Source: Deltaproteobacteria bacterium (GTDB lineage Bacteria; Myxococcota_C; UBA6777). Taken from it: a stretch of DNA of 36,719 nucleotides. The notes beneath the pieces are model-generated. The model did not search any database. It saw only the letters and a list, made by a program, of their open reading frames with translations, and was not told the origin of the DNA. Position 1 is the stretch's first letter. Each line of letters begins with the position of its first letter. Positions 6,062-32,928 of the stretch are shown piece by piece. The position numbers and the translations under genes were made by a program. Location: positions 1 through 36,719 of the forward strand of contig PCBK01000047.1 of NCBI GenBank assembly GCA_002731275.1, written 5' to 3'.

Positions 6062-7075
6062 TTAGCTCTGGAGACGACGGCGGAATGCAAAGGTCTCCAT
6101 ACACGCCTTGATCAGCTGGCTGAATTCTGGGAAGCTCAACGTCTGTTGTCCATCAGAGAATGCCTCTTCTGGCTTCTCGTGGACTTCGATAATCAACCCA
6201 TCACAACCTGCCATCACCCCTGCGAGTGCCATGTCAGAGACAAATCGCCTCAACCCAATCCCGTGGGATGGATCGACGATCACAGGCAGGTGTGTTTTCT
6301 CTTTTAGGATGGGCACGGCGTTTAGATCCAGCGTGTTGCGATACGCCTTCTCATAGGTCCGAATACCACGCTCACACAACATCAAGCGCTCATTCCCACT
6401 GGAGAACACGTACTCAGCCGATTGTAACAGGTCTTCGATCGTCCCAGACATCCCTCTCTTGATCAGGACAGGCTTATCGACCTTGCCAAGCTCATGGAGC
6501 AAGGCGAAGTTTTGTGAGTTTCGTGCACCAACCTGATAGATGTCGACATAATCGTGCATTGGTTCAATTTGTTCGACCGCGAGGACTTCGGAGATGATTT
6601 TGATACCGTACTCTTTCGCACATTTGTACCACGTCTTGAGACCATCCATCCCAATCCCCTGGAAGGAATAGGGGGATGTTCGTGGTTTGTAGACACCACC
6701 CCTCATGATCTTGACGCCATTTTCACTGAGATGGGCGAGGATGCTCTTGATCTGTTCCTCACCCTCAATAGAACACGGACCCGCCATCATCGTAAAGTGT
6801 CCCGCGCCGATAGGGACGCCGTCGACGTCGATCTTGGAGGTGCCGACCTTCCACTTTTTGGACACGAGCTTGTAGGCATCTGAGACACGATGGACATCGC
6901 GGACACCATCGAGATGACCGATTCTTCTGATGTCGAACTCGCTCTTGCCGATCGCCACGAGGTAGTGTTGATGTTGGGTCTTCACCTCTGTCGCCTTGTA
7001 GCCGAGCGCCGCGACTTCTTTCTGGATGTCGGACAACAGCGCGTCCTGGATGTCGTGTTCGAGTTGGATAATCAT
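6062..7075 (-). CDS. aroF: 3-deoxy-7-phosphoheptulonate (DAHP) synthase
   Basis: This enzyme condenses phosphoenolpyruvate with erythrose 4-phosphate, the entry step of the shikimate pathway. The protein is 337 residues, of the type I-beta (Thermotoga-like) class. Residues 1 to about 85 form a small ferredoxin-like/ACT-like regulatory domain (MIIQLEHDIQDALLSDIQK...), followed by the TIM barrel. Signatures seen are MMAGPCSIE, MRGGVYKPRTSPYSFQG, VGARNSQNF, PVLIKRGM and DPSHGIGLR. The N-terminal domain normally mediates aromatic amino-acid feedback in this class. It is the last gene of the trp operon and overlaps trpA by 4 bp (ATGA), so flux into the pathway and its tryptophan branch are co-expressed. 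Confidence 0.93.
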   Translation of the reverse strand: MIIQLEHDIQDALLSDIQKEVAALGYKATEVKTQHQHYLVAIGKSEFDIRRIGHLDGVRDVHRVSDAYKLVSKKWKVGTSKIDVDGVPIGAGHFTMMAGPCSIEGEEQIKSILAHLSENGVKIMRGGVYKPRTSPYSFQGIGMDGLKTWYKCAKEYGIKIISEVLAVEQIEPMHDYVDIYQVGARNSQNFALLHELGKVDKPVLIKRGMSGTIEDLLQSAEYVFSSGNERLMLCERGIRTYEKAYRNTLDLNAVPILKEKTHLPVIVDPSHGIGLRRFVSDMALAGVMAGCDGLIIEVHEKPEEAFSDGQQTLSFPEFSQLIKACMETFAFRRRLQS

Positions 7076-7872
7076 GTGTCGGACTCCACCGTGTGTGAGG
7101 GGCGAATATTGCGGACGAATGTATGGACCGTCGTCTTCAGGTCGTCTTTTCCATGTTGCAGTGCCTTGATGAATGCGCTGCCGATGATCGCGCCTTGGGT
7201 ATGTGTGACGGCCTTCTCGTAGCTCTCCTGGTCATGGATGCCAAAACCAACGATGAGCGGATTGGACAGCTTCATCTCCTGAATCCGTCGGAAATACGCG
7301 GTGCGTTGTTCGTCGACATCGAGCTTATTCCCTGTGATGGAGGCTGTTGAGACGATGTACAAAAAGCCCGTCGTGCAATCGTCGAGCTGTCGAATGCGCT
7401 GCGCAGATGTCTGTGGTGTGACCAAAAAAACTGTCTTTAGATCGTGCGCTTCAAACAAGTCTTTGTACTCTTCTTCGTACTCTGTGAGAGGAAGGTCTGG
7501 CAAAATCAGACCGTCTATCCCGACCTCTTGACAGTCCTTCACAAAACGCTCCACACCATATTGCAAAACGGGGTTGAGATAGCCCATCAGCAAGACTGGA
7601 ATCTCGACGGCTGGTCGGAGCTCTTTGAGCTGTTCAAACAGGAGGGGGAGGGTCATCCCTTGTGAGAGGGAGACCTCATTACTTTGCTGGATGGTTGGCC
7701 CGTCGGCGAGTGGATCGGAGAAGGGAAAACCCAACTCGATCATGTCTGCGCCTGCGTCCTGAAGGTGCTTACAGATCGCGATGGTGTCTTGTGTCTGTGG
7801 ATATCCTGCGGTGACGAAGACGGACAGGAGTTTGTGCTCTTTGGCGAAGGCCTGGGTCATACGATGTGCCAC
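7072..7872 (-). CDS. trpA: Tryptophan synthase alpha chain
   Basis: This subunit cleaves indole-3-glycerol phosphate to indole and glyceraldehyde 3-phosphate, passing indole to TrpB. At 266 residues it has normal length. Seen are the catalytic Glu in ADMIELGFPFSDPLADGP, the second acidic site in GLILPDLPL and the phosphate-binding GFGIHDQES and GAIIGSAF segments. The GTG at 7872 is preferred as start because AAGGAG lies 8 bp upstream; an ATG five codons in is the alternative. Only 3 bp separate it from the trpB stop. Confidence 0.95.
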   Translation of the reverse strand: MAHRMTQAFAKEHKLLSVFVTAGYPQTQDTIAICKHLQDAGADMIELGFPFSDPLADGPTIQQSNEVSLSQGMTLPLLFEQLKELRPAVEIPVLLMGYLNPVLQYGVERFVKDCQEVGIDGLILPDLPLTEYEEEYKDLFEAHDLKTVFLVTPQTSAQRIRQLDDCTTGFLYIVSTASITGNKLDVDEQRTAYFRRIQEMKLSNPLIVGFGIHDQESYEKAVTHTQGAIIGSAFIKALQHGKDDLKTTVHTFVRNIRPSHTVESDT

Positions 7873-7875
7873 GAT

Positions 7876-9063
7876 TTACTCCTTTTTGTCGAGGTATGTG
7901 AGGTAGGTCTGCATGTCTTTGTCACCACGCCCTGAGAGATTGACGACCACGACATCTTCAGGTTTACATGACAGCTTGGGCAGGTATGCGAGGGCATGGG
8001 CTGTTTCGAGTGCCGGGATGATGCCCTCTAGTTGGCTCAACTCGATCGCGGCTTCGACGGCCTCTGTGTCCGTCACGCTGACGTAGGAGACGCGGCCTGT
8101 GTCGTGAAGGTGTGCGTGTTGTGGTCCAATCCCTGGGTAATCGAGTCCTGCGGAGATGCTGTGGGCTTCTTCGATTTGGCCGTCTGCTGTTTGCATCACG
8201 AGTGTGCGGCTGCCGTGCAGGACGCCCTCTGAACCTGTCGCGATGGTCGCGGCAGTGCAGCCACTCGCGAGTCCTTCTCCTGCCGCCTCGATACCAAACA
8301 GCTCGACGTCTGCTTCGTCGAGATAGTGGTAGAATGCGCCGATCGCGTTGCTACCACCACCGACACAGGCGAGCAGCTTGTCCGGGCAGGGACGTCCGAT
8401 GTGTGTTTGGAGTTGTTCTTTGAGCTCTTTGCTGATGACTGATTGGAAGCGCGCGACCATGTCCGGGAAGGGGTGAGGACCGACGGCTGAACCGATGATA
8501 TAGTGCGTGTCACTGGGATTGGAGATCCAGTCCCTCATGGCTTCGTTGGCGGCGTCTTTGAGGACTTTGCTGCCTGACGTGACGGGCACGACTGTGGTGC
8601 CGAGCATCTGCATTCTCTTGACGTTGGGCGCCTGTCGATTCATGTCGATCTCGCCCATATACACGAAGCATTCCATATTCATCAGGGCGCAGGCCGTCGC
8701 TGTCGCGACGCCGTGCTGCCCTGCACCTGTTTCGGCGATGATACGTGTCTTGCCGAGTTTCTTGGCCAGGAGGATCTGACCGATGGCGTTGTTGATCTTG
8801 TGGGAGCCTGTGTGGTTGAGATCTTCTCGTTTGAGGAAGATCCGCGCGCCTATTTTTTCGGAGAGTCTGGTGGCTTCGTAAAGAGGCGTTGGGCGCCCGA
8901 TGTAATCGCGAAGGAGCATCTGGAAGGTCTCCTCAAAACTCTCCTCCTGCAAGATCTCGTTGTAGCTCTGCTGAAGCTCTTCGATATTGGGGTGCAACAT
9001 CTCGGGGATGTAGGCTCCACCAAATCGCCCAAAAAATCCTCGTTTATTCACAGCGTAGGACAT
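7876..9063 (-). CDS. trpB: Tryptophan synthase beta chain
   Basis: This PLP enzyme condenses indole with serine to give tryptophan. The product is 395 residues from the ATG at 9063 ([21 protein letters not shown]). That start has AGGAAAGG upstream and matches the family N-terminus; an upstream start at 9096 would overlap trpF and lacks support. Seen are the PLP lysine in [13 protein letters not shown], the [12 protein letters not shown] block, [10 protein letters not shown], the phosphate-binding [10 protein letters not shown] and NLSGRGDKD near the C-terminus. It is the standard short TrpB1 type, expected to pair with TrpA. Confidence 0.96.
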
Positions 9064-9076
9064 CTGTTTGCCTTTC

Positions 9077-9742
9077 CTATATCTCTTTCGCATCAAGCCC
9101 GTGGAACATCTGCTTTAGACGCTCAAATGACTTAAAGCCTGGTCTCAATTCAAATTGGCTGTTGAGGTCCACACCACACAGCGCCGGCCACAGCTGGGCG
9201 CGTCTCTTGATCTCTTCGGTGTGCTCTGTGTTGAGTCCCCCTGACAAAAAGAAGGGGTGTGTGAGTGGATACGCTTCCAAGAGGTCCCACCGAAAGGTCC
9301 GCCCTGTTCCGCCGTATTGTTTGCTCTTGGTGTCGAACACAAATCGCGCACAGCTCTGTGTGTAGGGAGTGAGCACATCAAAGTCGAAGTCCTCATCCAC
9401 ACCAAAGGCTTTCCACAACGTCAATGATGGGAGCAGCTCGCGTATGTGTACACAGCGCGTCGCCGATTCATCACCGTGAAGCTGGAGTATGTCCAGATCG
9501 TAGCGTTCAACGTACATCTGAAGGTCTTCGTCGGAGGCGTTGACAAAGACGCCGACCTTTTTGGTGTGTGGAGGGAGTTGTTTGAGTGCGGAAGGGTCGA
9601 GTGTGTCACCTGCAAAGCGTTTGGAGGGAGGGTAGAAAATAAACCCCATAAAGTCGGGTTCAAGGGTCGCAATCTCAGCGATATTCTGTGTCTCTCTCAT
9701 CCCACAGATCTTGCGCAGGAGAGGCGAATGTGACGCTGCCAC
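9077..9742 (-). CDS. trpF: Phosphoribosylanthranilate isomerase
   Basis: Catalyses the Amadori rearrangement of phosphoribosylanthranilate to CdRP. 221 residues, a single TIM-barrel protein. The catalytic Cys is in LRKICGMRE and the catalytic Asp in [20 protein letters not shown] and FFLSGGLN provide substrate and phosphate contacts. The GTG start is supported by AAGGAG 8 bp upstream. It follows trpC by 10 bp. The C-terminal VDLNSQFE-type ending resembles Bacteroidota homologues as I remember them. Confidence 0.94.
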
Positions 9743-9752
9743 AGTTGGCTCC

Positions 9753-10556
9753 TTATGCTTCTTCTGCGAGTCGTTTGACGTCTTGGATCAGTCGCGCACA
9801 GGTCCTGTGTGGCTGGCTCGTTTTCATGAAGGAAGTACCGATCAAGAATCCACGAAAACCCGACTGTTTGAGCGCATGAATGGACTCCGCTGAGGAGAGG
9901 CCACTTTCGGAGATCTTGACGAACTCATCGGGGATGTGAGGAGCGAGTGTGTGGGAGCGTTCGATCGAGACGGAGAAGTCGTCGAGATTGCGGTTATTCA
10001 CACCTACAACATCGACCTTCTCGTGGAGTGAACGTTTGAGTTCATCTTCATCGTGGACTTCGAGCAGGACTTCGAGTCCGATGCTCTTGGCGAATGTCGC
10101 GAGTCGTGCGATCTCTTCTGGAGAGAGGCTACGTGCGATCAACAAGATGACATCTGCGCCGATCGAGCGGGCTTCGATGATCTGGTACTCGTCGATGATA
10201 AAGTCTTTGCGGAGGATTGGGCAAAAGTTGAATTTGCGGGCCACTTCGAGGTCTTTGTTGCTCCCGCCAAAGTAGGCCTCGTCAGTCAGGACGGAGAGGG
10301 CGGAGGCGCCTGCTTGCATGTAGCCGATGGAGAGCTGTTCGACGTCTACAGAGGGATGCAGGGTCCCTTGTGAGGGAGAGCGTCGTTTGATCTCTGCGAT
10401 GATGCCTGTGAGGTCATCGCGTTGCAGGTAACTCTTGAAGGAGACCGTTGGTGTCTCAAAGAAGACACTCTGTTCGAGCAATCTCGTGGGGTAGAGTTCT
10501 TTGCGTTCGGCGACTTCTTTGCGTTTGTGGGCGACGATTTCTTCGAGGATATTCAT
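9753..10556 (-). CDS. trpC: Indole-3-glycerol-phosphate synthase
   Basis: Closes the indole ring from CdRP. 267 residues. Catalytic Lys and Glu positions are visible in GIIAEIKRRSPSQG, LRKDFIIDEYQI and LLEVHDEDEL. VVGVNNRNLDDF, ISESGLSS and FLIGTSFMK complete the barrel active-site and phosphate loops. It is monofunctional, with no fused TrpF. The start ATG overlaps the trpD stop by 4 bp (ATGA), so translation is probably coupled. Confidence 0.96.
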   Translation of the reverse strand: MNILEEIVAHKRKEVAERKELYPTRLLEQSVFFETPTVSFKSYLQRDDLTGIIAEIKRRSPSQGTLHPSVDVEQLSIGYMQAGASALSVLTDEAYFGGSNKDLEVARKFNFCPILRKDFIIDEYQIIEARSIGADVILLIARSLSPEEIARLATFAKSIGLEVLLEVHDEDELKRSLHEKVDVVGVNNRNLDDFSVSIERSHTLAPHIPDEFVKISESGLSSAESIHALKQSGFRGFLIGTSFMKTSQPHRTCARLIQDVKRLAEEA

Positions 10557-11557
10557 GGTGCTTTTTGACTTTCTTCGACGAAGGTGGTGAATGCGTGAAG
10601 GGCGCGCTTGGAGAGCAAGGTCTCTCGCGCTGTTTCAAAGGCTTCTGTGCGTGATATGGTGGGACGGGCGCAGTGAATGGCCATTCCTGCGTTGGCGACG
10701 ACGACATCTTGTTGGGCTTGTGTGCCTTCGCCTTGTAAGACGTTCATAAAGATCTTCGCAGAAGAGGCGACATCTTCGCCGCCGTAGAGGTCTTCTTGTG
10801 CGAGCTGTGAGAAGCCCATGTCACGAGGTGTGAGGAGCTGTTCACCCAACGCGGAGTGGATTTTACATGGACCTGTCAGCGAGATCTCATCATAACCATC
10901 GAGAGAGTGGGCGATTGTAAAGTCCATCTCTTCTTGTTGCAGCAGGTAGGTGTAGAGGCGTGCGAGTTCGAGGTTGAAGACGCCGATCAATTGTCTCTTG
11001 GGCCGACTTGGGTTGACGAGTGGGCCGAGCATATTAAAGAAGGTCCTGATGCGCAGCTCCCGTCTGATCGGCGCGACATGTTTCATCGCTGGGTGGAAGA
11101 GGGGGGCATGGAGGTAACAGATACCGGCTTTGTCGAGGCAACGTTTGAGGGTGTCGATATCGGCTGTGAAGTTCGCGCCGAGATGGAGCAAGACGTTGGA
11201 TGAGCCACAGACAGAGGAGACGCCATTGTTTCCGTGTTTGGCGACATTGACGCCGCTACCTGCGACGATAAAGGCCGAGAGTGTGGAGATGTTGAAGGTG
11301 TCTTTGCCATCACCACCAGTCCCACATAGATCGAGCGCGTCGTACTCTGAGAGGTCAACAGGGGTGCAGAGATCGAGCATCGCGTTGCGAAAACCTTGCA
11401 GCTCCGAGACGGTGATGCTTCTCATGCGGAAGGCTGTGAGGAAAGAGGCGACCTGTGCGGGAGGATATGTTTGTGCGGCGATCTCCTTGAGTGTCTCACG
11501 AGCTTCTTCGCGGGACAGGGATTCGTGGTCAAACAGACGATTGAGTAAGGCTCTCAT
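10553..11557 (-). CDS. trpD: Anthranilate phosphoribosyltransferase
   Basis: Transfers phosphoribosyl from PRPP to anthranilate. 334 residues from the ATG at 11557 (MRALLNRLFDHESLSREEA), which matches the family N-terminus. The frame is open a further 34 codons upstream, but those residues are low-complexity and lie in the repeat-bearing gap. AAAGG sits 7 bp before the chosen start. Diagnostic segments are DLCGTGGDGKDTFNIST (PRPP and Mg binding), AKHGNNGVSS and the GPLVNPSRPKRQLIGVF loop. It is not fused to a glutaminase domain; TrpG is encoded separately upstream. Confidence 0.95.
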   Translation of the reverse strand: MRALLNRLFDHESLSREEARETLKEIAAQTYPPAQVASFLTAFRMRSITVSELQGFRNAMLDLCTPVDLSEYDALDLCGTGGDGKDTFNISTLSAFIVAGSGVNVAKHGNNGVSSVCGSSNVLLHLGANFTADIDTLKRCLDKAGICYLHAPLFHPAMKHVAPIRRELRIRTFFNMLGPLVNPSRPKRQLIGVFNLELARLYTYLLQQEEMDFTIAHSLDGYDEISLTGPCKIHSALGEQLLTPRDMGFSQLAQEDLYGGEDVASSAKIFMNVLQGEGTQAQQDVVVANAGMAIHCARPTISRTEAFETARETLLSKRALHAFTTFVEESQKAP

Positions 11558-11803
11558 GAGGTACCTTTGGCGCGAATGGTTTTGGGTTTTTTGAGACCGT
11601 ACAGCGGTTCTCTCTGCGACAAGAACGTTTTGTGGCTTTGGACTTTTCTCTATGACCAACAGGAGAGGAGTTTGTATCCAGTGCTGTCAGGGTGTAATGG
11701 TCTCTGCAACAAAGTTCATGTGTTATGTTTTTTCGGTAGGGTCGGGCCTTGTGTCCGACCTCAATGTTGTGTTTTTTCGTAGGGTCGGGCCTTGTGTCCG
11801 ACC
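11558..11803. other. trpG-trpD gap with duplicated hairpin repeat
   Basis: This 246-bp gap is the only sizeable one in an otherwise gap-free operon. Its trpG-proximal end contains two near-identical repeat units, listed separately. The rest shows no gene. It may destabilise or partly terminate the transcript between trpG and trpD, or may simply be an insertion of repeats. Confidence 0.55.
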
Positions 11804-11809
11804 TCAATG
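11727..11809. repeat. Tandem pair of 39-40 bp hairpin repeats at trpG 3' end
   Basis: Unit 1 is 11727-11766 and unit 2 is 11771-11809. They are identical except for one inserted G. Each contains the stem GGTCGG/CCGACC around a GCCTTGTGT-type loop. The last bases of unit 2 (TCAATG) overlap trpG: on the minus strand they supply its final His codon and the TGA stop. The motif looks like a small dispersed palindromic repeat. Confidence 0.85.
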
Positions 11810-12373
11810 CATCCAATTTCGAAGCATTTGTTTTCCTTCTGGTGTCAGGACACTTTCGGGATGAAATTGAATGCCTTTGACATCGTACTGTGTGTGAGAG
11901 AGGGCCATGATGTTGTGTTCTTCGTCCTCAGCGGTGATCTTGAGGCAGGCAGGCAGGCCTTCTCGTTGGACGAGCCAGGAATGATAGCGTCCTCCGATGA
12001 ATGTCTCGGGGATATTGGCAAAGAGCTCTTCATCTTTGTCGAGGACGTTGATGGGTGTGCCTTTTCCGTGGACGACGTCCTTCATGTTGAGGAGGGTGCC
12101 GCCAAACGCCTCAGCGATACCTTGGTGGCCGAGACAGACACCGAGGATGCTCTTCGTTGGGGCGTAGCGTTTGATCAACGCGGGCATGATCCCGGCTTCT
12201 TCGGGGATACCTGGTCCAGGTGAGAGCAAGATCTTGTCGTATTGTTCGACCTCATCGATGGTCAGCTTGTCGTTTCTGATGACGTCGAGTTGTGCGCCAC
12301 CGATGTCTTGGAGGTAGTGGACGAGGTTGTATGTAAATGAGTCGTAATTGTCGAGTACGAGGATGCGTTTCAA
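11804..12373 (-). CDS. trpG: Anthranilate synthase component II (glutamine amidotransferase)
   Basis: Supplies ammonia from glutamine to TrpE. 189 residues, class I glutamine amidotransferase. The nucleophile is in GVCLGHQGIAEAFGG and the His-Glu pair in GIQFHPESVLTP; the oxyanion region is LSPGPGIPEE. The start is a TTG one base after the trpE stop (TGA-G-TTG), with GAGGAG inside the trpE end as ribosome site, so translation should be coupled to trpE. The stop codon lies within a repeat unit. The sequence recalls Bacteroidota TrpG (YAPTKSILGVCLG, GRYHSW). Confidence 0.95.
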   Translation of the reverse strand: MKRILVLDNYDSFTYNLVHYLQDIGGAQLDVIRNDKLTIDEVEQYDKILLSPGPGIPEEAGIMPALIKRYAPTKSILGVCLGHQGIAEAFGGTLLNMKDVVHGKGTPINVLDKDEELFANIPETFIGGRYHSWLVQREGLPACLKITAEDEEHNIMALSHTQYDVKGIQFHPESVLTPEGKQMLRNWMH

Positions 12374-12374
12374 C

Positions 12375-13796
12375 TCAAATCTCCTCTGCCATGGCCAGGG
12401 CTGTTTTCAGCGCGCGCAGTTTGTTGTTGACCTCTTGTAGCTCACTGTGTGGATCGGAGTCGGCGACGACACCACCGCCTGCTTGTGAGTGCAAGACGTT
12501 TTGCTTGCTCAAAAATGAACGGATGATGATGGCGTGGTTGCAGCTCCCATCAAAGCCGATATTTCCGATCGCGCCACCGTAAGCGCGGCGACGACCTTTC
12601 TCGTAGCGGTCGAGCAGCTCAAGGGCTCTGTATTTGGGGGCGCCACTGAGCGTACCCATTGGGAAGGTGTCACTGAGCAACGAGACGACCTGCGCTTGTG
12701 CTCCCATCGTGCCGGTGACTTTTGAGGTCAGGTGGATGACGTGAGAGTAAAGCTGAACTTGCTTAAAGACTTCGACGTGGACGTCATGACAGTGTTTGCT
12801 CAGGTCATTTCGCGCGAGGTCGACGAGCATGACGTGCTCAGCGTTCTCTTTAGGATCGAGTCGAAGGGCTTCGATCGCCTGCATGTCGACGTCCTGATCG
12901 CCTGTGCGTTTGTACGTCCCAGCGATTGGATGAAGGGACGCCTTGTTGTTTTGGATCACGAGTTGGGCTTCTGGTGACGAACCAAAGAGCTTGAAGTTAC
13001 CGTAGTCGAAGTAAAAGAGATAGGGGGAGGGGTTGATCGAACGCAGGGCCCTGTAGACGTTGAACTCATCACCTTGGAAGGGTTGTGAGAAGCGTCTGGA
13101 GGGGACGATCTGGAAGACATCACCACGGAAGATATGTTTTTTGCACTGCTCAACGGCGTCGATGTACTCGTCCTCTACAAAGTTCGAGAATTCTTCCCCG
13201 TCGACTTTGAATGGATAGCTTGGGAAGTCTTTGTGGTCGATGAGATATTCGAGCTGTGTGAGCGGTGCGTTGTCTTCGGGACTCCCTTTGAGGGTATTTT
13301 CGATCAAAAAGAGTTCATTCTTGTAGTGGTCGATGGCGATGATGAAGCGATAGACATTGTAGATGATGTCGGGGATATCGCGGCTGTCATCTGGATCGTC
13401 CTGTACGTTGAGTTCATCGAAGTACCGGATACAATCGTACGCCATGTAACCAAAGAAGCCGTTGGCGAGGAAGTCAAACTCTGGTGGACATTCGTTGGAG
13501 AATTGGTCACAAAAGGCTTGTAATCTTCTCTCGACATCTTTTCTTTCGGTGATGGGGTGGGTGTATTTGGTTCCATCGGGGTAGTGTTCGTGGATCTGTT
13601 CGTGAGCGACTTTAAATTCGCTGATCGGATCACAACAGATGTAGGAGAAGCAGCGTTCACCGGGTTGGTAATCGGCGCTCTCAAGGAGGATGCTGTTGGG
13701 GTATCGGTCGCGGATGCGTAAGTAAATACTGACAGGTGTTGTGGTGTCAGAGAGTCTCTTCTTGATCGTACTATGAAATGGATAGGTCACTGGCAT
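12375..13796 (-). CDS. trpE: Anthranilate synthase component I
   Basis: Makes anthranilate from chorismate with ammonia from TrpG. 473 residues from the ATG at 13796 (MPVTYPFHSTIKKRL). A TTG at 13865 would add 23 residues without ribosome-site support. The N-terminal domain carries SILLESADYQ, the tryptophan feedback site (LLES). The C-terminal chorismate-utilising domain shows IVPSRRF, SPYLFYFDYG, SPEAQLV, PIAGTYKRTGD, DLARNDLSKHC, GTLSGAPKYRALELL and RRRAYGGAIGNIGFDG. TPVSIYLRIRDRYPNS and FSYICCDPI resemble Bacteroidota TrpE as I remember it. It is the first gene of the operon. A TTGACA at 13860-13865 lacks a good -10 partner, so the promoter is unresolved. No leader peptide with clustered Trp codons was found in the 92 bp upstream. 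Confidence 0.95.
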   Translation of the reverse strand: MPVTYPFHSTIKKRLSDTTTPVSIYLRIRDRYPNSILLESADYQPGERCFSYICCDPISEFKVAHEQIHEHYPDGTKYTHPITERKDVERRLQAFCDQFSNECPPEFDFLANGFFGYMAYDCIRYFDELNVQDDPDDSRDIPDIIYNVYRFIIAIDHYKNELFLIENTLKGSPEDNAPLTQLEYLIDHKDFPSYPFKVDGEEFSNFVEDEYIDAVEQCKKHIFRGDVFQIVPSRRFSQPFQGDEFNVYRALRSINPSPYLFYFDYGNFKLFGSSPEAQLVIQNNKASLHPIAGTYKRTGDQDVDMQAIEALRLDPKENAEHVMLVDLARNDLSKHCHDVHVEVFKQVQLYSHVIHLTSKVTGTMGAQAQVVSLLSDTFPMGTLSGAPKYRALELLDRYEKGRRRAYGGAIGNIGFDGSCNHAIIIRSFLSKQNVLHSQAGGGVVADSDPHSELQEVNNKLRALKTALAMAEEI

Positions 13797-13888
13797 ACTT
13801 TTTCTCTGTGTTGGGGCGAGTGCAAGAGCTACATCTGAAGTGTCGAATCTTGATGACTTTGTCAAGGGGGTGGGAGGAGGGGATGGGT

Positions 13889-24780: not shown

Positions 24781-24898
24781 CTTTTTTTTGAGCGTATGTC
24801 GTTGTTGAATATAGGAAAGGTAAATGAAAACAAGGCAGGTGCGAACTAAAGTGCGCAGTTGAAATTTAGGTGCGAACGTGTCTTCGCAGTTGCAATTT
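24757..24898. repeat. Three copies of a ~31-bp TGCGAAC...CGCA repeat
   Basis: Copies are at 24757-24785 (diverged), 24837-24867 and 24868-24898; the last two are directly adjacent and 24/31 identical. Each has a dyad, TGCGAA/TTCGCA in the third copy. The third copy encodes the last ten residues of the N-formylglutamate amidohydrolase-like protein, and its TAA stop (24866-24868) spans the junction of copies two and three. Confidence 0.75.
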
Positions 24899-25615
24899 GT
24901 GCAGTACTTTTGCGATGCGCGAACCCACTTTTTTGGCTTTCTCAGGGGTGTCGATCAGATCTTGTCGGACTTCAAATTCGAGATAGATCAGATTGTGTGC
25001 GCGGCCGTGTCTGTTGGCTGAGTAAATGAGGTGATCAAATCCGGAGTATGGTTCATTGAGGGCTGTGACAAATCCTTCCTCTTCGAAGAGGGTGGCGACA
25101 CGTTTGGCGATCGCTTCGTGATCGTCATAGAGTACACCGATCTCCATGGGTCTGAGCTCTTCACCGAGTTTGGGCGTAAATGAATGCATGGAGAGAAGCA
25201 AGACATCGCGATCCATATCGAGTCGTTTGTGGAGCGCTTGATCAATGGCTTCGTGGTATGGATCGTGGTACATCTCAAAACGTCGTTGGCGCTCTGCGTC
25301 GTCGATGTTTCTGTTAAAGGAGGGGGTGTATCCTTCGACATCTGTGCGAATCCAGGTGCCATCTTCAGGTTTTCTGTTGGGGTCACAAATCAGTCGAGAG
25401 AAGCGAGAGAAGAGTCCAAAAGAAGAGGTCTCATCGATGAGTGAGCGCGATGTATCAGCAATCCCAATATCCCAGCCCCAGTGTGTTTGAAGCCAGGGAT
25501 GATCTTCTTCTGTTGCTTGCATTGGGGGAGGGATGAGATTTGTGGCGTGTTCAACGATCACGATCAAAGGCGCGGCGAGTGTATCATCTCCGTATGTTTC
25601 AAAAGCTGCTTCCAT
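24866..25615 (-). CDS. N-formylglutamate amidohydrolase-like protein
   Basis: 249 residues with a strong AGGAGG ribosome site. The family hydrolyses N-formylglutamate to glutamate and formate, the last step of one histidine-degradation route; many members are of unproven substrate. Seen are IVIVEHATNLIPP, the metal-site region HWGWDIGIADTSR, SRLICDPNRKPEDG, VLLLSMHSFTPK, IGVLYDD and LNEPYSG. The C-terminal ten residues (KLQLRRHVRT) are encoded by a short repeat, so the native C-terminus may have been replaced. A histidine ammonia-lyase lies 4 kb away, but no urocanase or imidazolonepropionase is present, so a histidine-utilisation role is not established. Confidence 0.82.
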   Translation of the reverse strand: MEAAFETYGDDTLAAPLIVIVEHATNLIPPPMQATEEDHPWLQTHWGWDIGIADTSRSLIDETSSFGLFSRFSRLICDPNRKPEDGTWIRTDVEGYTPSFNRNIDDAERQRRFEMYHDPYHEAIDQALHKRLDMDRDVLLLSMHSFTPKLGEELRPMEIGVLYDDHEAIAKRVATLFEEEGFVTALNEPYSGFDHLIYSANRHGRAHNLIYLEFEVRQDLIDTPEKAKKVGSRIAKVLHKLQLRRHVRT

Positions 25616-28616: not shown

Positions 28617-29408
28617 ATGGCAGATCGCCAGATGATCGATTTAAGAGAGTTATTCGAACGAATCAACCGAGCTGTAGGTGGAATGCTGGACTCCTATGAG
28701 TTCTCCAAGATACCAGTCCCATCAAACATGCTCAGACGATTTGTCTTCGAAGGCAAAGAGATAGCCGTTGACGTACACGCGTGGCAAGGCAATGAGCTCG
28801 CGTTTGGTCGGGTCATTCACCTCGACGCAGGTGACGACCTTCAAATCTTCAACCTGCTCTTTTATCCCATTGTCTCCTCTCCTGCGCCGGCCATCATGTG
28901 CGAGATCCTTGCGGTCAACCAACAAGTCCAACTCTTTGTCCTGGATGCCTATCCCACCAACGCCAAACACCACGTTGAGAGTGTCCTTCGTCCCATTCGA
29001 GAAGCCAAAGAACAACTCGCCGGGCGCGAAATTATCCGAGATATCCCAGAGTGGGGTGAGAAGGTCTTTTCAAAACATGCGCTCTTTCTGCGTCCCCAAG
29101 AGGGAGGGAAGATCGAGCACGTTGCTGAGCTTGTCTTGTTGCTTGAATCGCTCTTTGAGCCGTGGCTTCAATCACTTCCACAAGACGAAGGAGAGCATGA
29201 GGTCGATGACATGACCGTTCTCCGTCGCAAAAGACACATCCTCGTCCATGCACAACACGAACCTCTCGGACCCTACCTTGCGCGTATCGCTGATCCCGAA
29301 TGGATGCGACTCTTTTTGATGGAGATCCTCTTCCCTGTCTGGCTGAAAGAGGGTGATGTCCCCGCACCCTGGCTCGAACAATCCCCCCTTCAAAAAACAG
29401 TACAATAA
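28617..29408 (+). CDS. Ferredoxin-dependent bilin reductase-like protein (divergent)
   Basis: 263 residues from the ATG at 28617, with AGGGAGAG upstream. The family (PcyA/PebA/HY2) uses reduced ferredoxin to convert biliverdin into phytobilins. Similarity seen by eye: RVIHLDAGDDLQIFNLLFYP followed by PAPAIMCEILAV and LFVLDAYP (the central sheet), then DIPEWGEKVFSKHALFLRP, and a C-terminal EPLGPYLARIADPEWMRLFL helix ending in EILFPVW. In PcyA the catalytic Asp follows a GCD motif; here the equivalent appears to be Glu96 (MCE). The PcyA His88 position appears to be Asn79. The reaction may therefore differ from PcyA. There is no heme oxygenase, phytochrome or ferredoxin nearby. It is the first gene of a three-gene unit. 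Confidence 0.65.
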   Translation: MADRQMIDLRELFERINRAVGGMLDSYEFSKIPVPSNMLRRFVFEGKEIAVDVHAWQGNELAFGRVIHLDAGDDLQIFNLLFYPIVSSPAPAIMCEILAVNQQVQLFVLDAYPTNAKHHVESVLRPIREAKEQLAGREIIRDIPEWGEKVFSKHALFLRPQEGGKIEHVAELVLLLESLFEPWLQSLPQDEGEHEVDDMTVLRRKRHILVHAQHEPLGPYLARIADPEWMRLFLMEILFPVWLKEGDVPAPWLEQSPLQKTVQ

Positions 29409-29459
29409 CCAATCAATTTATGTCGGCCTTTTCTCTTTCTCTGGCCAATGGAGTCTTGT

Positions 29460-31019
29460 ATGGAGCCATTACTGATCACAGGTGAATCCCTCAAAGTAGA
29501 CGATGTTGTCGCTGTCGCAAATGGTCGGAGGGTCGAACTTTCACCGGATGTATTGCCCCAGATCAAACGTTCGCGAAGGGCTGTTGAGACGCTCGTCAAT
29601 GAGAAGCGCGTTGCGTACGGTATCACAACGGGCTTTGGGCACTTTAAGGACAAGATCATCCCACCTGAAGAGGTCAAACAGCTCCAGCTCAATCTCGTCC
29701 GTTCACATGCCGTTGGGGTCGGACCTGCGCTCTCACGTGAGGCCGCCAGAGCGATGCTGCTCGTGCGCGCCAATACATTGGCGAAGGGATTCTCAGGAGT
29801 CCGTCCTGTCGTGATCACGACGATGCTCGACATCCTCAACGCGGACATCTACCCACGTATCCTCTCACAAGGCTCTCTTGGCGCAAGTGGTGATCTCGCG
29901 CCGCTCGCTCATCTCGGCATGGTCCTGCTCGGTGAAGGGGAGGTCTTTGTGGATGGCGAAGCTGTCCTTGCAGCAGATGTCTTCGCAAAGCACGGTATTC
30001 AGCCGCTCGAACTGCAAGCCAAAGAAGGACTCGCGATTCTCAATGGGACGACCATGATGGTCGGACTCGGTGCCTTGCTCGTGAGGCGTGGGATCAACCT
30101 CCTCATCACAGCTGATATCGCAGCCTGTTTGAGCCTCGAAGCGCTCAAGGGAACGGACCGGGCTTACGACCATCGCGTCCACGCGGTCCGCCCCCACCCT
30201 CGCCAAGCTGACTGTGCTGCTTTCTTGCGCAAGCTCCTCGAAGGGAGTCAATTCTTGCGCGATGATGATCCACTCAACGTTCAAGATCCATACACGCTTC
30301 GTTGTGTACCACAAGTCCACGGAGCTGTCCGTGACGCCGTTGCGTATGCGCAGTGGGTCATCGATATCGAGCTCAACGCGGTCAACGATAACCCAATCAT
30401 CTTCACAGAAGAAGGTTCCGACGAATTTGACGTCATCTCTGCTGGAAATTTCCACGGGGAACCGATCGCTTTTGCCGCTGATTACATGAAGCTCGCGTTA
30501 ACTGACTTGGGCAACATGAGTGAGCGTCGTATTGCCCGTCTCGTCGACGCTGATTGTAATCAAAGTGTCCTGCCGATGTTTTTGACCGAGTATGGTGGCT
30601 TGCAAAGTGGCTTTATGATCGCGCAGTACACGGCGGCGTCATTGGCGTCTGAGAACAAATCCCTTGCTCACCCTGCAAGCGCCGACAGTATCCCGAGCAG
30701 CGCAAATACAGAAGACCATGTGAGTATGGGGGCGATCGCGGTACGCAATCTGGAGAAGGTGCTCAATCACGTCGAACATATCGTGTCTATTGAGTTGATG
30801 GCGGCGGCGCAGGGCATCGATTTCCGTCGCAAGAGGATGGGACGACCTGATGCTGCACTTGGCGCTGGGACATCAGCGGCGTATGCGTGTCTGCGTGAGG
30901 CTGTTCCATTTGTCGATGAAGACGTCTATTTTGCGCCACTGATGCAGAAGGTCAAAGACCTCGTCGAATCAGCAGAGATCAAACTACGTGTCGAGCAAAC
31001 ACTCGAAGGAGCTGACTGA
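29460..31019 (+). CDS. hutH: Histidine ammonia-lyase
   Basis: 519 residues. Converts L-histidine to trans-urocanate and ammonia using a self-formed MIO cofactor. I choose the second ATG (29460): a GGAG precedes it and the resulting numbering reproduces the classical one. Tyr53 is in AYGITTGFG, His83 in LVRSHAVGVG (the Ser-His pair typical of histidine rather than tyrosine selectivity) and the MIO triad is Ala142-Ser143-Gly144 in SLGASGDLAPLAH. VNDNPIIF and DSIPSSANTEDHVSM are also present. The gene follows the bilin reductase-like gene by 51 bp and precedes the HExxH gene by 4 bp, so it is in an operon with neither of the usual hut partners (urocanase, imidazolonepropionase). Confidence 0.92.
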   Translation: MEPLLITGESLKVDDVVAVANGRRVELSPDVLPQIKRSRRAVETLVNEKRVAYGITTGFGHFKDKIIPPEEVKQLQLNLVRSHAVGVGPALSREAARAMLLVRANTLAKGFSGVRPVVITTMLDILNADIYPRILSQGSLGASGDLAPLAHLGMVLLGEGEVFVDGEAVLAADVFAKHGIQPLELQAKEGLAILNGTTMMVGLGALLVRRGINLLITADIAACLSLEALKGTDRAYDHRVHAVRPHPRQADCAAFLRKLLEGSQFLRDDDPLNVQDPYTLRCVPQVHGAVRDAVAYAQWVIDIELNAVNDNPIIFTEEGSDEFDVISAGNFHGEPIAFAADYMKLALTDLGNMSERRIARLVDADCNQSVLPMFLTEYGGLQSGFMIAQYTAASLASENKSLAHPASADSIPSSANTEDHVSMGAIAVRNLEKVLNHVEHIVSIELMAAAQGIDFRRKRMGRPDAALGAGTSAAYACLREAVPFVDEDVYFAPLMQKVKDLVESAEIKLRVEQTLEGAD

Positions 31020-31023
31020 GAAG

Positions 31024-32928
31024 ATGTTCAAATCATTCCCGCACCCCACACAAGATGTCCTCCCAATGGAATCTCCACGTACATGGTTACCGACGCCAGA
31101 GCGCTTGACTGAGGCTTGCCAAGAGGCGATTATTTCCGGTCCTGACGGTGACTTTGTCGCTTCTCTGGAAGGGTTGGGGTGTCCACCAGAAGAGCTCCTT
31201 GTGACACCATTCTCTGCGAGAGTGGGGGCGATGGCAGCGGCGAAAGGTCTCTCCTTTTTTCACCATGAGCTGCGCGGTCGACTGCCTGTGCCTGACGCGC
31301 TGATGCCTGAGGTCGAAGTGTGGGAATCTGGCGGGCTTCCTGTGTGGCAAGAGGGTGTTCTTATCGAGCCCAAATACTTCTCGTTTTTTTTGGACGCACC
31401 CTTTGTTCCTTATAATCCAAACTACCGCAGAAAGTGGCGGGCACATGAGTTGATTCATAGCCTCTCAGGGTTTTTTTGGCGCCCTGATATGACGCGCTTT
31501 GAATGCTATATGGGCGCGCGACTGGACGAACTCTTACCGATTGTACACTGGTATGGGCTAGATGAGATGTTCCGGCCTCGCTGTGAGAAGCACATTGGTA
31601 AACGTCTGTATCGCGATCTTTGTCCTGATTGTGAAGCGCTCGCGCGGCCATTTTGGGAACATGATGAATCATTTGTCGACGCCCAGAGTGAGACGGCGAC
31701 ACTTTGGGCGAGGCGCGCACATGACCACTTTGCAGAAGAGTGGGATGCGATCATCAAAGAGTATGAGACTGGCCAAAGGGTCGAGACGCCACGAGGCCAA
31801 TTGAACGCATCCTCTGATGCTGTTGGTTATTTGATGAGTCATTGGCCTCGCCTGACTGCGTGGTCGTTTGGTTCGTGGGTCGAGCTCTTTTTGCGCGATG
31901 GAGTGGATTATCATTCTTCTGTGAGTGGTTACATGGGTGCTATCACCGATGTTTCCAAGCAATTGTTCACAGGTGAATGGGCTGCATCTTCGACACAAGC
32001 AGAGGCGATGAGAGCACGTCGTCTGTTGCAAGATATTGGCGCGAGGACCTTTTTGGCGCTGGAGTGGTTACCGGAGCATGCAAGGTCCACACAGCGGATT
32101 GAAGACGCGATGATGCCGCTCCTCGAATCGGCTGCTTCTTTGTCTCATGAGCTACTTGAAAAGCCCACATCGATTGAAAAGCTGGATGAGCTGGTTTCTA
32201 CTATCTTCACGACATTCCAGTCGCAATTTGGCAACCTCGAAGGTGTCCCTGAAGAGCTCAAGAGCAATTTTGTGGCCTTGGGAGTAAGCTATCGTCATCA
32301 TGCGTTGTCTGGACTTCATGATGACGTGGAGGCTGCCGGCCTCTCTTTGATCCGCGAAGGTTTGCTTACTGCGGCGCCTGCGCGACATGGGACACTTGCA
32401 CCACTCTTGGAAGACGACGTCTTACGTGCTTTTGTCCGCTCCGACGTCTTTTTGGGAGAAGGGCGATTGCTTCAGCGTTTGGTCTCTTGGGTTGAAGGGT
32501 TGCCTGCTGAGCAGAGAGCGTGTGATGCGCAAAGTCTGGAGCGTTTGCAATTTGAAGCGTGGTTGCGCAACGAGCCTATCCAAGACAAAGAAGCAAAGCA
32601 CTTCTCAGTGTTGGTCGAAGATGTCCAGGACATCTCAGAAGGTCGTGGTGAGTTTCGTATGCACCATACGTTTCGTTGTGCTGCGTGGAGCGCGAGTTTG
32701 ATTGAGGAGATCCTTGGGGAGGTGATTGAGGGAGAGCGTGCTGTGTTGGGGGTGATTCATCGTGGTGGTGAGCAAGCATTGTCGTTATTTGGTGACACAA
32801 CAGAAGAAGTCATCGCTCATATCCGCTCTGGTGTATCAGCAAAGGACTGGCTGGATGAACGGTATCTCGAAGATTTGGAGATCTTGCTGGAGAACGCTTT
32901 TGTGTGTTGGTTTCCTGTGCCTCGTTGA
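31024..32928 (+). CDS. HExxH-motif protein of unknown family
   Basis: 634 residues, starting 4 bp after the hutH stop. I recognise no family. Residues 141-145 read HELIH inside RKWRAHELIHSLSGFFW, and Glu160 in TRFECYMGARLDE is a candidate third zinc ligand, a gluzincin-like arrangement. A possible second metal site is CEKHIGKRLYRDLCPDC. Large helical stretches follow. There is no signal peptide or membrane segment, so it is probably cytosolic. The C-terminal portion (about 510-634) is mixed alpha/beta. The tight coupling to the ammonia-lyase suggests action on the same substrate or product, or processing of a partner. The function is not predictable from sequence. Confidence 0.75.
   Translation: MFKSFPHPTQDVLPMESPRTWLPTPERLTEACQEAIISGPDGDFVASLEGLGCPPEELLVTPFSARVGAMAAAKGLSFFHHELRGRLPVPDALMPEVEVWESGGLPVWQEGVLIEPKYFSFFLDAPFVPYNPNYRRKWRAHELIHSLSGFFWRPDMTRFECYMGARLDELLPIVHWYGLDEMFRPRCEKHIGKRLYRDLCPDCEALARPFWEHDESFVDAQSETATLWARRAHDHFAEEWDAIIKEYETGQRVETPRGQLNASSDAVGYLMSHWPRLTAWSFGSWVELFLRDGVDYHSSVSGYMGAITDVSKQLFTGEWAASSTQAEAMRARRLLQDIGARTFLALEWLPEHARSTQRIEDAMMPLLESAASLSHELLEKPTSIEKLDELVSTIFTTFQSQFGNLEGVPEELKSNFVALGVSYRHHALSGLHDDVEAAGLSLIREGLLTAAPARHGTLAPLLEDDVLRAFVRSDVFLGEGRLLQRLVSWVEGLPAEQRACDAQSLERLQFEAWLRNEPIQDKEAKHFSVLVEDVQDISEGRGEFRMHHTFRCAAWSASLIEEILGEVIEGERAVLGVIHRGGEQALSLFGDTTEEVIAHIRSGVSAKDWLDERYLEDLEILLENAFVCWFPVPR

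Follow-up and report, generated by a model that had tools for sequence, protein, structure and literature searches.

What might three adjacent genes for a bilin reductase-like protein, a histidine ammonia-lyase (HAL), and a protein with an HELIH motif do together? The initial annotation of this locus had considered a joint pathway, leading to a linear-tetrapyrrole, urocanate-derived, or modified-peptide product. The window, i.e., the whole stretch of 36,719 nucleotides that we analyzed, is contig C52 of the assembly G000 (10.75 Mb in 200 contigs; completeness, 94.65%; contamination, 5.5%), which we compared with four further genomes of the phylum (G001 to G004; n = 5 in total, all from one family). 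The coordinates, the common strand, and the gaps of 51 bp (FDBR-HAL) and 4 bp (HAL-P0003) originally given for the three head-to-tail genes were all correct (Table 1), where an in-frame ATG at 29448 is a possible alternative upstream start for HAL and a GTG start at 30988 would make P0003 overlap with HAL. The three genes are probably co-transcribed as one unit. Their GC3 and codon usage fall inside the range of the remaining genes in the window, which gives no indication of a recent foreign origin, and the presence of HAL and P0003 orthologs in the phylum's other genomes makes contamination an unlikely origin of the contig. Elsewhere in the window, the − strand carries an aromatic/tryptophan biosynthesis run (6062-13865), whose genes we take, from an assignment by eye, to be trpA, trpB, trpF, trpC, trpD, trpG, a trpE-like gene, and an aroF-type synthase gene.

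Table 1. Position, strand, and basis of assignment of the three genes in the window.
Feature	Position	Strand	Basis
FDBR (P0001), pre-PcyA-like	28617..29408	+	PF05996, PDB profile matches, Foldseek, residue map and tree
HutH, histidine ammonia-lyase (P0002)	29460..31019	+	TIGR01225, orthologs, hutU (C41) and hutI (C23)
P0003, phylum-specific conserved protein, putative metalloprotein	31024..32928	+	Orthologs in 5/5 genomes; conserved motifs

The first protein, P0001, is almost certainly a member of the ferredoxin-dependent bilin reductase (FDBR) family. A PF05996 profile search bore out the original description as bilin reductase-like, with a match over nearly the full length (profile positions 10-228 of 228; 77.2 bits against a cut-off of 31; E = 2e-21), and a PDB profile search with P0001 and its relative from G003 matched PebB, PebA, PcyA, phytochromobilin synthase, and PcyX. 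The proposed structural comparison with PcyA agreed: Foldseek ranked PcyA first (E = 5e-10) for the predicted structure of P0001, a low-confidence model with a mean pLDDT of 58. The reading frame is intact, with 263 codons. When P0001 is aligned to the cyanobacterial sequences of PcyA, PebA, and PebB, its Ile67, Asn79, Glu96, His214, and Glu215 fall at PcyA Glu76, His88, Asp105, Asn219, and Asp220, respectively, i.e., the PcyA set of Glu76, His88, and Asp105 is absent. Two of these replacements, Asn79 for His88 and Glu96 for Asp105, had been read correctly from the sequence; the third, Glu215 at Asp220, is new. P0001 has the PF05996 fold and motifs in common with PcyA, PebA, PebB, and PebS, and Asn at position 88 in common with PebA and PebB, but it differs from these enzymes in carrying Glu at both catalytic Asp positions and in its context, which is neither photosynthetic nor phage.

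The closest relative of P0001, and the only close one found, is the FDBR of G003 (33% identity), which has Val, Asn, Glu, Asp, and Glu at the five positions in the same alignment, such that Asn/Glu/Glu at PcyA positions 88/105/220 is common to both. The two proteins form one clade (support, 100/100) with terminal branches of 1.51 for P0001 versus 0.57 for the G003 protein, in a tree that excludes the published pre-PcyA references and whose deeper order is unsure owing to long branches. An FDBR was present in two of the five phylum genomes, G000 and G003, and a non-exhaustive contig scan with two short patterns returned the presumed G003 record SBHC01000040.1 as its sole hit. P0001 is a fast-evolving and isolated FDBR in a non-cyanobacterial bacterium. 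In the same tree, the seven PF05996 proteins of each of two small genomes from one family (G046 and G323; loci L032-L049) grouped with G191, apart from PcyA and from PebA/PebB; these may be the RCCR-like group from Schekmanbacteria that PMC10151467 mentions.

The FDBR gene of G003 (contig C54, locus L012) adjoins a heme oxygenase gene, within a run that also encodes a protein kinase, a ParA-like ATPase, two V4R proteins, a Phycobilisome-family globin, and a 2Fe-2S protein. The kinase and the ParA-like ATPase were assigned by eye and are presumed to be such. G003 holds two paralogous HO/Fe-S/V4R/V4R/BBAG/ParA/kinase clusters, at L012 and on contig C58 (L028), and only the former includes an FDBR. 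The neighborhood of the G003 FDBR matches the published gene context of the pre-1 and pre-3 FDBRs, an HO/Fe-S/V4R/V4R/BBAG cluster (Rockwell, Martin and Lagarias 2023, PMC10151467). As reported there, Glu76, His88, and Asp105 are all missing from pre-1, Asp105 is retained in pre-2 and pre-3, and position 88 is Asn in pre-2 and Thr in pre-3. Like P0001, the pre-PcyA proteins are FDBR family members from outside the cyanobacteria that lack the Glu76 and His88 of PcyA, and pre-2 has the same Asn at position 88, whereas pre-2 and pre-3 keep the Asp105 that is Glu96 in P0001. Since all three residues are missing from P0001 as from pre-1, it is closest to pre-1 by residues, and it is these residues, rather than a tree with pre-PcyA references, that point to pre-1. 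The gene context differs: Pre-1 and pre-3 genes lie in the cluster, whereas the P0001 gene lies outside any such cluster, with no heme oxygenase, Fe-S, paired V4R, or BBAG genes found around it in the window. Across G000 as a whole, no BBAG-1/3-type globin was detected, and the search for V4R gave one sub-threshold match, nothing above the cut-off, and no V4R pair.

A probable source of biliverdin is encoded elsewhere. The initial annotation had noted that no heme oxygenase or phytochrome gene is nearby, which holds for the neighborhood but not for the genome, where both are encoded on contig C101 (locus L071, 7077-10165). The heme oxygenase gene (7077-7634; 186 residues) abuts or overlaps a bacteriophytochrome gene, after which lies a gene for a PAS/histidine-kinase-like protein. 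A whole-genome PF01126 search had overlooked this heme oxygenase, which was found by reading the phytochrome region; it nonetheless passes the PF01126 cut-off (29.5 bits against 23; E = 8e-7), so that a G000 devoid of heme oxygenase is rejected, and it has an aligned His16 and an LEGST motif in common with the two heme oxygenases of G003. The phytochrome comprises PAS, GAF, PHY, HWE kinase, and receiver domains. Its N-terminal SNCDKEPVHIPG stretch contains a Cys, and its GAF domain contains SPIH; in G000 and G003 alike, the phytochrome retains the N-terminal Cys and shows SPIH or SPVH rather than a GAF Cys. An N-terminal Cys with SPIH is the arrangement of biliverdin-binding bacteriophytochromes and does not call for an FDBR product. 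With a heme oxygenase and a biliverdin-type bacteriophytochrome side by side on C101, biliverdin is probably available in G000.

The second protein, P0002, very likely acts as the HutH of a dispersed histidine degradation. It scores 631 bits with the TIGR01225 hutH model (cut-off, 539) and keeps Tyr53, His83, and the MIO triad at 142-144 (Ala142-Ser-Gly), as had been noted, together with Asn195. The aminomutase, TAL, and PAL models stayed under their cut-offs, and a tyrosine/phenylalanine lyase or an aminomutase was rejected. Orthologs with 71-73% identity occur in G001, G002, and G003, which makes four of the five genomes with G004 as the exception; none of them is located near an FDBR or a P0003 ortholog, and the G003 copy adjoins aroB. 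The usual hut genes, previously described as absent, are indeed missing from the neighborhood, where an FGase-family protein (24866-25615) falls far under the hutG cut-off, but hutU on C41 and hutI on C23 score above the cut-offs of TIGR01228 and TIGR01224, respectively. A cut-off-passing hutI is present in G000 to G003 and not in G004, the same distribution as that of the P0002 ortholog, and hutU was found in three of the four genomes with that ortholog and not detected in G003. Given the hutH score, the orthologs, hutU and hutI in G000, and the co-occurrence with hutI, P0002 is most simply an ordinary HutH, which resembles known HutH proteins in passing the equivalog cut-off and in its active-site residues and differs from them in that its gene lies outside a hut operon. 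G000 encodes a second HAL-family enzyme (C157, locus L027, 6945-8465) that is under the hutH cut-off, has 37% identity to P0002, and is closer to the HALs of G003 C26 and G004 C526, which have neighboring genes in common.

The third protein, P0003, remains what it had been called, an unassigned HELIH protein: The motif spans residues 141-145, and the family has no Pfam, NCBIfam, PADLOC, or PDB match. Orthologs (41-47% identity) are present in all five phylum genomes, with H141-E-L-x-H145 and C187/H190/C200/C203 (C-x2-H...C-x2-C) invariant among the five, and no homologs were found in 381 other genomes, viral contigs, or plasmids. In the structure model, pLDDT is about 30-40 over the HELIH motif, and no fold match came from such a model. 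We regard P0003 as a putative zinc protein that is phylum-specific among the genomes searched. Since it occurs in three genomes without a detected FDBR, it is not dependent on gene 1.

Conservation of the trio beyond this genome had been set beforehand as the test of a joint pathway, and the trio is not conserved in G001 to G004. No two of the FDBR, the HAL ortholog, and the P0003 ortholog are adjacent in these genomes, among which G002 and G004 have fragmented assemblies with only partly visible neighborhoods; the three families are distributed over two, four, and five of the five genomes, respectively, and always at different places. A literature search for an FDBR together with a histidine ammonia-lyase found no paper. 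The trio as a conserved pathway is thereby rejected, and in all likelihood it is a genome-specific arrangement whose members share no pathway. The common strand, the short gaps, and the probable single transcript would also suit a biosynthetic unit in which P0003 acts as a processing metalloprotein and whose product is linked to a bilin or to urocanate, yet this is very improbable: Within the phylum it is largely refuted, as none of the relatives pairs even two of these genes; the HAL has a HutH-level score and is accompanied by hutI and mostly by hutU; and P0003 is found where the FDBR is not.

We favor, with a probability of roughly 0.7, the explanation that P0001 is a reductase of the pre-PcyA type that has been orphaned and now sits, with an unrelated HutH and P0003, in a lineage-specific operon. 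Its ancestor would be a pre-PcyA FDBR of the kind encoded alongside HO/Fe-S/V4R/BBAG genes; the P0001 gene would since have left that cluster, and it probably shares a transcript with two genes to which it is unrelated, gene 2 being a presumed housekeeping HutH of dispersed histidine utilization and gene 3 the putative zinc protein. Biliverdin from the C101 heme oxygenase would be the most likely substrate, reduced with ferredoxin-supplied electrons and a proton relay in which Glu96 and Glu215 may replace the usual catalytic Asp pair. That P0001 actively reduces biliverdin is somewhat favored. This explanation rests on five genomes of the phylum, and several points speak against it. The long branch of P0001 means that its activity could have been lost or changed; the gaps of 51 and 4 bp are as expected for a functional operon; and there is no obvious bilin acceptor in G000, given that neither a BBAG-1/3-type globin nor an above-cut-off V4R protein was found and that the phytochrome is of the biliverdin type.

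P0001 might also be the remnant of a lost pre-PcyA cluster, either decaying or already without catalytic activity. This would account for that long branch, for the replacement of both Asp105 and Asp220, and for the missing BBAG and V4R partners, but we consider it unlikely, as the 263-codon frame is intact with an almost end-to-end PF05996 match, the change from Asp to Glu is conservative and recurs in the G003 FDBR within a complete cluster, the codon usage resembles that of the neighboring genes, and G000 still encodes a heme oxygenase. Rather more doubtful is that the Glu/Glu FDBRs form a lineage with altered regiochemistry or another open-chain tetrapyrrole, and with a novel acceptor, in a phylum from which photosynthesis is not known. 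P0001 could, as another possibility, supply the phytochrome with a reduced bilin chromophore, and a phytochrome and an FDBR do co-occur in exactly G000 and G003; with n = 5 genomes and with phytochromes that have the N-terminal Cys and SPIH/SPVH of the biliverdin-binding arrangement, this is the least probable reading of all.

The proposed three-gene pathway is, overall, not supported, and what keeps its interest is, instead, a diverged FDBR outside its cluster in which both catalytic Asp residues are Glu, as in the cluster-bearing relative of G003. G003, with the full cluster, and G000, with none, provide a sister pair for a reductase leaving its cluster. As an orphaned pre-PcyA-type reductase, P0001 would extend the distribution of this type to an under-sampled phylum of large genomes, for a group that is thought to be the origin of cyanobacterial pigment synthesis.
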